The notes under the pieces: generated by a model
Database searches by the model: none
What the model was told of the DNA's origin: nothing
What the model saw: the letters and a program-made list of their open reading frames with translations, nothing else
Assembly: GCA_944326585.1 (NCBI GenBank)
Contig: CALVEN010000001.1
Location: forward strand, 186,001 to 250,000
DNA from: Candidatus Gastranaerophilales bacterium
GTDB lineage: Bacteria > Cyanobacteriota > Vampirovibrionia > Gastranaerophilales > Gastranaerophilaceae
DNA: 64,000 bases
Reading direction: 5' to 3'
Part shown: one piece after another, positions 36,635 to 39,123 of the stretch
Numbering within the stretch: position 1 is the first letter of the stretch
Layout: every line of letters begins with the position of its first letter
Translations under genes and position numbers: made by a program

Positions 36635-37873
36635 ATGAATTTAGAACATATAAAAAAGGTGGATCCGGTTGTTGCCGAGCAGATAGAATTGGAGCTTAAA
36701 CGCCAGCAGGAAACTATAGAACTTATTGCGAGTGAAAATATAACATCACTTGCCGTAATGGAGGCTGCAGGGAGCGTTTTGACAAATAAATATGCGGAAG
36801 GCAAGCCGCACAAAAGGTTTTATAACGGCTGTGAGCATGTTGATGTGATTGAAGAAATTGCACAAAAAAGAGCTTGTGAACTTTTTAAAATGGATCATGC
36901 AAACGTTCAGCCGCATAGCGGTGCGCAGGCTAATATGGCAGTATTTATGTATTGCTTAAAACCCGGTGATAAGGTATTGGGTATGGATTTGTCAAACGGC
37001 GGGCATCTTTCTCACGGTTCTCCTGTTAACTTTTCAGGCTTATATTTTGACGTGGCAAGTTACGGTGTGGATGAAGACGGTAATATTGATTACGATGATG
37101 TTCTTAGAAAGGCAAAAGAACATAAACCGAAACTTATTATTTGCGGTGCAAGCAACTACTCAAAAATAATTGATTTTAAGAAGTTTAGAGAAATTGCCGA
37201 TGAAGTTGGTGCATATTTGTTGGCGGATATTGCGCATATTGCAGGGCTTGTTGTGACAGGTTTGCACCCGTCACCTGCGCCTTATGCCGATTTTGTGACG
37301 ACAACTACGCATAAATCATTGAGAGGGCCGAGAGGCGGGATTACAATGTGCCGTGAAGAGCATGCTGCAGGGATTGATAAAGCAATATTCCCCGGAATGC
37401 AGGGCGGACCTTTGGAGCATATTATTGCGGCAAAAGCCGTTGCTTTATACGAAGCTATGCAGCCGGAATTTAAAACTTATGCTGAACAGATTATTAAAAA
37501 TGCCAAAGCGCTTGCTCAAGGGCTTATGGATGAAGGTATGGATATTGTGGGCGGCATGACGGAAAACCATTTGATGACGCTTGATTTAAGAAGAACAGGC
37601 AAAACCGGAAAAGATATGGCAAATGTGCTTGAACGTGTCGGAATTACGGCTAATAAAAATACCGTTCCGAATGATCCGCAGAGTCCGTTTGTAACGTCAG
37701 GTATAAGACTCGGTACGCCTGCTGTTACAACCAGAGGTTTTAAAGAAGACGATATGACAGAAGTTGCAAAAATTATTGCATCTGCAATTTTTGCATCGGA
37801 TAACGAACAGGGTTTGAAAAATTTGCGCGAACGCTCTTTGAAACTTTGCAAAAAATATCCGTTATATCAATAG
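36635..37873 (+). CDS. glyA: serine hydroxymethyltransferase
   Basis: GlyA transfers the serine hydroxymethyl group to tetrahydrofolate, making glycine and methylene-THF. The PLP-binding lysine lies in [13 protein letters not shown] near residue 226. The N-terminal [11 protein letters not shown], the [13 protein letters not shown] segment and [10 protein letters not shown] are all typical. At 412 residues it is full length. GGGGGAG precedes the ATG. It is followed by a dispersed repeat rather than another gene. Confidence 0.97.
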
Positions 37874-37880
37874 ATTTACA

Positions 37881-37992
37881 TTTTATCCCTCGCCCCTTTG
37901 GGGAGAGGGTGTCCGAAGGACAGGAGAGGGGCTAAAATCCTGCAATCTTTTACCGCACCTTCTTACTCGCTCGCGCCATAATCACGGCGCGG
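37881..37992. repeat. dispersed repeat, copy 1
   Basis: This ~110-base GC-rich unit starts TTTTATCCCTCGCCCC and includes GGGGAGAGGGTGTC, GGAGAGGGGCTAAAATCCTG and CACGGCGCGG. A second copy at 49887-49984 is about 85% similar with small gaps. It lies between glyA and the next gene. Confidence 0.85.
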
Positions 37993-38085
37993 CTTGTCTG
38001 TTTCTTATTCCGCATATACTTATAAAATATATTATGTACATTTTTGTTTTATTTGCTATAATAAAAACGAAAAGGGAGAATAGTT

Positions 38086-39123
38086 ATTATTATCAGGTTA
38101 ACACATGCTCATATAATCGGTACGGTAATCGCCTATATTCTGGGTGTTTTTCTTGTGCCTCTGGTAATTAGTTTTTCCAAAAAAGAAGGACTCGTTGATG
38201 TCCCGAATGAACGAAAAATTCATACTAAACCTATTTCCCGTATCGGCGGCGTGGCTATCTGGACAAGTACCATGCTGACTTTTTTATGTCTGGTTTTTTT
38301 AAGCTATTATCCTTACGGCAGCCTGCTTTCAGGGATTTTACTCGGCAGCTCTTTGATGTTTTTATTGGGGCTTGTCGATGATGTATACGGGTTGGGCGCT
38401 AAATTTAAACTCTTTATTCAGGTTGCTATAGCCACTCTTGTTTATTTATTGGGTGTACAAATAAATGAAATCCCTTTGTTCGGCGGAATTGATTTGGGGA
38501 TTTTGTCTTACCCTATTACTTTGTTATGGATTGTAGGTATAAGTAATGCCGTGAATTTTATTGACGGCGTAGACGGGCTTGCGGGTTCCGTTGTGACGGT
38601 AAATGCGATTACGCTTGCCATAATCGCTGTTGCCATGACGCCTTCCAGTCCCATAAGCGCATTGATAGGTTTTATCCTTGCAGGTTCCATGCTTGCATTT
38701 TTGACTTATAACTTTAACCCGGCAAGAATTTTCATGGGTGACAGCGGTGCGCTGTTTTCAGGCTTTTTGCTTGCAACAATTTCAATTACCGGTGTTATGA
38801 AAGCCGCAACTCTCGCAATTATTCTGCCGTTTGTTGTTTTGGCAGTTCCTATTATGGATATAACTTATTCTTCTTTGAGAAGAATTTTTAAAGGTCAGTC
38901 GCCTTTTGTTGCTGATGCCGAACATATTCACCATAAACTTCTTCATGCAGGTTTTTCTCAGAAAAAAACCGTTGTGATTTTGACATCCGTTGCGATTATA
39001 GCAGGCGCTTTGGCATCACTGTTTATGGGAACTAATACAATTAAACATTATTTTATTTATATTCTTGCAATTGTATTAATAATGTTTGCGCTAAATTTAA
39101 TAAAACTATTGACAAAGAAATAA
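38086..39123 (+). CDS. WecA/MraY-family undecaprenyl-phosphate glycosyl-1-phosphate transferase
   Basis: This multi-spanning membrane enzyme transfers a sugar phosphate to undecaprenyl phosphate, starting a surface polysaccharide. Typical motifs are LVDVPNERKIHTKPISRIGG, LGLVDDVYGL, NAVNFIDGVDGLAG, FNPARIFMGDSGA and the His loop DAEHIHHKLL. Between the upstream stop (38062) and GTG 38155 there is no ATG, GTG or TTG, yet the frame encodes the missing first membrane helix (HIIGTVIAYILGVFLVPL). With GGGAG at 38074-38078, an ATT start at 38086 fits best. The minimum start would be GTG 38155. Confidence 0.88.
   Translation: MIIRLTHAHIIGTVIAYILGVFLVPLVISFSKKEGLVDVPNERKIHTKPISRIGGVAIWTSTMLTFLCLVFLSYYPYGSLLSGILLGSSLMFLLGLVDDVYGLGAKFKLFIQVAIATLVYLLGVQINEIPLFGGIDLGILSYPITLLWIVGISNAVNFIDGVDGLAGSVVTVNAITLAIIAVAMTPSSPISALIGFILAGSMLAFLTYNFNPARIFMGDSGALFSGFLLATISITGVMKAATLAIILPFVVLAVPIMDITYSSLRRIFKGQSPFVADAEHIHHKLLHAGFSQKKTVVILTSVAIIAGALASLFMGTNTIKHYFIYILAIVLIMFALNLIKLLTKK

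Follow-up and report, generated by a model that had tools for sequence, protein, structure and literature searches.

Few natural AUU start codons have appeared in print. The infC gene, which encodes initiation factor IF3, starts with AUU or AUA in E. coli and other bacteria and is autoregulated (PMC9410913, PMC13009471), with IF3 discriminating against the AUU codon of infC (PMC9410913). The E. coli poly(A) polymerase gene pcnB also has an AUU start, for which Binns and Masters 2002 is cited (PMC9410913, PMC13009471, PMC1780047). Conserved non-AUG starts with a strong Shine-Dalgarno (SD) sequence are reported for cvfC1 (AUU) and ccpN (AUA) of S. aureus, where reporters with an AUU or AUA start yielded, in poor medium, roughly 10% of the output from AUG (PMC13009471). 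For lepA of Borrelia burgdorferi and Bacillus licheniformis, an AUU start was proposed from sequence alone (PMC1780047). A preliminary description of the locus studied here had called ATT starts rare and known mainly from infC; infC is indeed a known case, and so are pcnB and S. aureus cvfC1, with AUA in ccpN.

We analyzed a 64,000-nucleotide stretch of DNA from a Candidatus Gastranaerophilales bacterium (the window), in which a gene for a polyprenyl-phosphate sugar-phosphate transferase appears to start with AUU. AUU-start genes are already known (infC, pcnB, and cvfC1), and the transferase adds a very probable member. Like infC, it would start with an AUH codon (AUU, AUA, or AUC) behind an SD; unlike infC, which is autoregulated by its own product, it cannot be, so any effect of IF3 would be exerted in trans. 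Like pcnB, it is an AUU-start gene other than infC, but the two proteins are unrelated, and in the transferase gene a single codon position carries AUU in some members of a bacterial family and AUG in others. With cvfC1 and ccpN it shares a conserved non-AUG start and a strong SD; those are other genes in another phylum and were studied with reporters, whereas the transferase start, like that of lepA, is proposed from sequence. Two species are named for lepA, whereas the transferase pattern is lineage-wide. A literature search found nothing on topic about an AUU start in wecA or tagO or about start codons in Gastranaerophilales, most subscription journals lying outside its coverage.

The transferase frame is bounded upstream by an in-frame TAA stop (38062 to 38064, forward strand) and ends at 39123. 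Within it, the first ATG, GTG, or TTG is a GTG at 38155 to 38157, which lies downstream of the codons for the first membrane helix. The codons after the stop read AAA CGA AAA GGG AGA ATA GTT ATT ATT ATC AGG TTA, the first ATT being at 38086 to 38088, and the SD GGGAG (38074 to 38078) stands 7 nt before it. The sole ATG nearby, at 38105, begins a different reading frame of just 3 codons. Both the lack of a usual start codon (ATG, GTG, or TTG) between the stop and GTG 38155 and the placement of GGGAG ahead of ATT 38086 had been pointed out in the preliminary description and were confirmed in the sequence. Read from the ATT, the gene spans 38086 to 39123 on the forward strand (345 codons plus stop).

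The product matched PF00953 (Glycos_transf_4) with 141.1 bits (cut-off, 27) and fell below the NCBIfam cut-offs of both the WecA model TIGR02380 (138.7 bits; cut-off, 326.05) and the MraY model TIGR00445 (71.2 bits; cut-off, 192.05). The earlier assignment to a WecA/MraY family is therefore sound at the superfamily level, and WecA is too specific a name. Enzymes of the Glycos_transf_4 family commit the shared polyprenyl-phosphate carrier to surface polymers. Of the solved structures, MraY matched best, and since that alignment begins at residue 5 of the ATT frame, it covers helix 1. Two named records that encode this protein at 98 to 100% identity are labeled Candidatus Gastranaerophilales. 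A distant paralogue (30% identity) is present elsewhere in the window's genome (G000:C16). The gene upstream (36635 to 37873, forward strand) is an open reading frame whose sequence looks glyA-like (serine hydroxymethyltransferase). Between this gene and the promoter lies a palindromic-looking stretch (37880 to 37940; CTCGCCCCTTTGGGGAGAGGG...GAGAGGGGC) that resembles a dispersed repeat in appearance.

We compared the start region among 16 genomes of the same genus (g1), 15 of which have a readable N-terminus. One genome (G003) holds only a 30%-identity paralogue, and in another (G001) the gene is split over two contigs; it was read in locus L018, which was left out of the tree and of the isoleucine column test described below (hence 14 rows), and a C-terminal piece (L016) was not used. 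The codon aligned to 38086 (codon 0) was ATT in all 15 rows. A sequencing error that erased an ATG, which the preliminary description had named as a possible refutation, is excluded by the presence of ATT in 15 genomes. The orthologue comparison that it had proposed also showed that the GTG equivalent is not conserved: at the position of GTG 38155, 9 of the 15 rows carry GTG and the other 6 carry GTT or GTA.

These data bear on whether translation instead begins at GTG 38155, with the first helix absent and the upstream conservation noncoding. GTG is a usual start codon, it is the one picked by a gene caller limited to ATG, GTG, and TTG, and a second promoter-like site lies upstream of it (38090 to 38117). 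Apart from its absence in 6 of 15 rows, one genus row (L005) has no usual start in its first 50 codons, the codons upstream of the GTG show amino acid conservation with synonymous change, and the frame aligns to solved MraY across the region that would be lost. We find this reading hardly credible.

Four genus rows are exceptions to the lack of a usual start codon near the ATT. In L014 an in-frame ATG occupies codon -8, which is upstream of the SD and overlaps the TATAAT box of that row; L008, L009, and L010 carry a TTG at +4, a position too distant from the SD. Initiation at a neighboring non-AUG codon, ATT 38089, ATC 38092, or ATA 38080, was also weighed. The gene begins with an ATT ATT ATC run, GGGAG is spaced compatibly at 10 nt from 38089 and 13 nt from 38092, and an automatic scorer chose codon +1, equivalent to 38089, over codon 0 in 10 of 15 genus rows. 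Codon +1, however, reads ATA or TTT elsewhere in the genus and TTA in genus g36, the third base of +2 varies, and ATA 38080 is 1 nt from the SD, whereas codon 0 is ATT in every genus row and carries the ATG of 41 sister-genus rows. A start at one of these neighbors is thus quite improbable. Codon choice also set codon 0 apart: of 42 isoleucine columns invariant across the 14 genus rows, 40 varied in codon, column 9 was ATA throughout, and column 0 alone was always ATT.

Across the wider family, the transferase was present in 140 of 146 genomes (E up to 1e-60). Together with the further genus rows, these gave 148 readable start regions (L161, cut by a contig end, was dropped). An ATG start was found in 101 of the 148, in 41 of them (12 genera) exactly at codon 0 and in the others at -3 to +3. 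The remaining 47 rows, from 12 of 40 genera, had no ATG start and carried ATT (45 rows), ATA (1 row), or ATC (1 row) behind an SD, a tally in which the offsets of 14 rows were set by eye. The automatic caller gave 43 ATT, 2 ATA, 1 ATC, and 1 GTG; this GTG (L066, codon -7) lies upstream of the SD of its row, which we counted among the ATT, ATA, or ATC rows (ATH rows). Genera g25, g26, and g28 each hold both the ATT and the ATG state, and in g26 the two occur at the same codon with similar leaders. With ATT in every one of the 15 genus rows, relatives that have ATG at this very position, and GTG 38155 unconserved, ATT 38086 is very probably the start site, conserved in the genus and exchanged with ATG. 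That this codon is the start is what the preliminary description had suspected.

The coding boundary could be placed with the 33 family rows that needed no offset, since the amino acid varies at codons -1 and -2 and is fixed at 0, +2, and +4. In these rows codon +2 is unconstrained at its third base (ATC, 14; ATT, 10; ATA, 9), whereas codon 0 hardly varies (ATT in 31 of 33). ATT makes up 55% of the isoleucine codons elsewhere in the same genes, compared with 45 of 47 at the start of the ATH rows; a naive binomial value for codon 0, with shared ancestry ignored, is 4e-10.

No usual codon occurs between the upstream stop and codon +11 in 36 of the 47 ATH rows. The other 11 have one in frame, either upstream of the SD (ATG at -8 in L014 and L105, GTG at -7 in L066 and at -13 in L088, TTG at -17 in L074 and L100) or as a TTG at +4 or +5 (five rows). 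TTG is also in range in 6 of the 101 ATG rows, so the lack of GTG and TTG is not absolute; because the automatic caller takes ATG before GTG or TTG, those six rows could start at GTG or TTG. No family row requires such a start, which argues for AUU as such, beyond any weak start.

The sequence pattern is consistent with an AUU start that is kept by selection as a translational throttle, possibly sensitive to IF3. Start site and throttle taken jointly, we favor this account with moderate confidence; it is weakened by that bundling and by the further usual codons in 11 of 47 ATH and 6 of 101 ATG rows. Also against a throttle, 101 of 148 relatives do without AUU. The AUU could also be the true start yet neutral or mildly deleterious, persisting since little enzyme is needed, with no selection and no link to IF3. 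The restriction of the ATH state to 47 of 148 rows speaks for such drift, as does its repeated change: in a FastTree phylogeny of 159 rows, the ATT/ATG state needs 10 to 11 changes, of which 7 are required by starred branches. That tree was built with FastTree only, so its support values are weak evidence, and its changes are counted without direction; it omits L018 and L161 and includes 12 of the 19 loci from elsewhere in the order described below, one of which (L196) has no state. Drift among weak codons should also have produced GTG and TTG, which start 16 of 132 resolved genes in the window's genome (a rough figure, with 18 of 150 genes unresolved and a caller that leans on SD matches), yet no row needs one, and ATT is kept in all 15 genus rows while 40 of 42 invariant isoleucine columns vary in codon. 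We regard a neutral weak start as possible but rather unlikely.

The apparent non-AUG state extends past the family but does not characterize the enzyme superfamily. Five other families of the order supplied 19 loci. Close to the N-terminus, 11 of these have an ATG in frame, 2 (L204 and L206) have TTG, and 6 (L191, L193, L194, L195, L202, and L203) lack a usual start and instead show a purine-rich stretch with ATT or ATA after it; in L191 a TTG lies some 22 codons further upstream. Eight families at a greater distance supplied another 20 loci, 17 of which have a usual codon in frame. In the remaining three, L266 to L268 of family f9, of the same class, GGAGG precedes an ATC or ATT by about 9 nt (L267 has ATGs further down), which suggests that non-AUG starts of the transferase may predate the order. 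In all 33 further relatives that were read, among them Bacillota and cyanobacteria, a usual codon lies close to the N-terminus; they were drawn from 80 loci, the other 47 being from Gastranaerophilales or relatives, with several duplicating contigs of the genomes already used.

A promoter scan identified TGTACA-16-TATAAT, with TG before the second hexamer, at 38035 to 38062 on the forward strand, one of 2 promoter-like sites in the scanned stretch, where shuffled sequences average 1.0. Of the 15 genus rows, 13 carry a TATAAT element 26 to 31 nt ahead of the ATT, which leaves scant space for a start further upstream. From this site, transcription is predicted to start at about 38069, leaving a leader of about 17 nt; as this position is inside the frame, starts further upstream would be absent from the RNA. 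In L011 and L015 the transferase gene instead follows close behind the upstream gene, and ATT is still present. In the family, 11 of 47 ATH rows have the end of a glyA-like gene 4 to 212 nt ahead of the start, and 41 of 101 ATG rows have one at 0 to 111 nt. The second promoter-like site, TTATCA-16-TATAAT, falls within the beginning of the coding sequence, and its ATA codon is that of column 9, the only other single-codon column among the invariant isoleucine columns of the genus.

The initiation machinery appeared ordinary. The 16S tail of the window's genome contains CACCTCCTTTCT, and its duplex with the transferase leader was calculated at -9.0 kcal/mol. The 16S 3′ tail is GGATCACCTCCTTTCT, which is normal, in the three genomes in which a 16S gene was found among nine searched, ruling out an altered anti-SD there. 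An SD match of at least 4 nt is present in all 47 ATH rows (mean, 4.53), whereas 25 of 101 ATG rows have 3 nt or fewer (mean, 3.85); these SD figures and the codon counts are raw row counts uncorrected for shared ancestry. With that caveat, the strong SDs of the ATH rows fit the published link between non-AUG starts and strong SDs (PMC13009471).

A dedicated initiator tRNA, or a start rule relaxed throughout the genome, would be another source of AUU starts in this lineage. A single initiator-type tRNA, bearing the anticodon CAU, was found, and none of the 35 tRNA matches read, out of 44, resembled another initiator. To gauge the genome-wide background, 400 kb of the window's contig was compared with 387 kb of an ATG-bearing relative, giving 150 nonoverlapping reciprocal-best gene pairs; this comparison spans roughly one quarter of the genome, with infC outside it. 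In 38 of the 150 pairs, the alignment begins at least 3 codons before the first usual start in the window's genome. Judged by eye, clear homology beyond that start occurs for the transferase alone (28 codons), 1 gene in 150. Five other pairs have their usual start 22, 17, 14, 13, and 12 codons in, and we judged these to be chance extensions of the alignment into a poorly matching leader; one of the pairs has 28% identity. With 1 of 150 genes affected, a wide relaxation of start rules was rejected, and neither the tRNA matches read nor the gene pairs gave any support for a special initiator or a relaxed rule, to which we attach next to no credence. In the same survey, a gene of the window's genome that is presumably gyrA-like (row A_-_216851; AAGGAGAAAATTTTGAGC), could start at a TTG or at the ATT codon just before it and was read as TTG.

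Under the throttle account, the ordinary initiator tRNA would read AUU 38086 on an SD-led mRNA with the short leader predicted above. Selection would retain the AUU for keeping production of the membrane enzyme lower than AUG would allow, and lineages would alternate between AUU and AUG at one codon. IF3 would probably reject the AUU-initiator pair as usual, so that output would track the balance between IF3 and ribosomes. What the sequences show is the start site with its conservation and the ATG found there in relatives; low output, selection for low output, and IF3 sensitivity are inferred.

We also examined infC and the RNase Y gene, which, less securely, appear to have non-AUG codons behind an SD as well, infC in the family and RNase Y in five genera. 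infC was found in 14 of 16 genus and 59 of 60 family genomes. ATA (25 loci), ATT (13 loci), or ATC (4 loci) stands 3 to 12 nt after the SD in 42 of 44 infC loci read, among them that of the window's genome (L184; G000:C8). A usual codon is absent between the SD and the IF3 homology in 11 of the 44; all 14 loci of the window's genus have an ATG at the homology start, so that an infC AUA start there is likely, not forced. RNase Y (TIGR03319; 662 bits; cut-off, 454) is present in 57 of 60 family genomes. In 8 of 30 loci (L445 to L452; genera g6, g17, g20, g33, and g34), ATC (7 loci) or ATA (1 locus) directly follows a leader ending in GGACA, and the other 22 have ATG near the aligned start. Four of the eight have an in-frame ATG 10 to 11 codons upstream, and an ATG comes three codons downstream in both g6 loci and eight codons downstream in the g33 locus. 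L445 alone has no nearby ATG, its first usual codon being a TTG at +7.

GGACA also directly precedes the transferase start in 8 of 47 ATH rows (L018 of the window's genus, g36, g5, and g40) and in 0 of 101 ATG rows, and it occurs in 12 of 14 infC leaders of the window's genus. The window's own transferase gene does not have it, and the leaders of family f7 (GGAGAAAGAACT and GGAGATAGAACG) do not share it. A scan with the motif AGGANAGGACAATH gave 9 matches in 78 genomes versus 19 for a reversed control; 4 of the 9 were at the transferase gene, 2 at RNase Y, and 3 at neither. The motif does not predict starts, and a regulon defined by it was rejected. A small non-AUG regulon in Gastranaerophilales, comprising infC, the transferase (AUU), and RNase Y (AUC or AUA, in five genera), some with a shared GGACA-ending purine leader and with the AUH-bearing gene differing by subclade, is a speculative and doubtful proposition, weakened by the in-frame ATG upstream in half of the eight RNase Y loci. 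If it were true, the level of IF3 would set, in trans, the rates of cell-surface polymer initiation and mRNA decay.

The transferase offers many natural comparisons of AUU with AUG at one codon, with at least 7 state changes on the tree, and these make the purpose of a non-AUG start testable. Gene callers restricted to ATG, GTG, and TTG will truncate the transferase in genomes like the window's, losing the first membrane helix. For the organism, the likely effect of the AUU start is a low and possibly IF3-dependent supply of the enzyme that commits the polyprenyl-phosphate carrier to surface polymers, as the weak output of the S. aureus reporters (PMC13009471) and IF3 discrimination in infC (PMC9410913) would lead one to expect.
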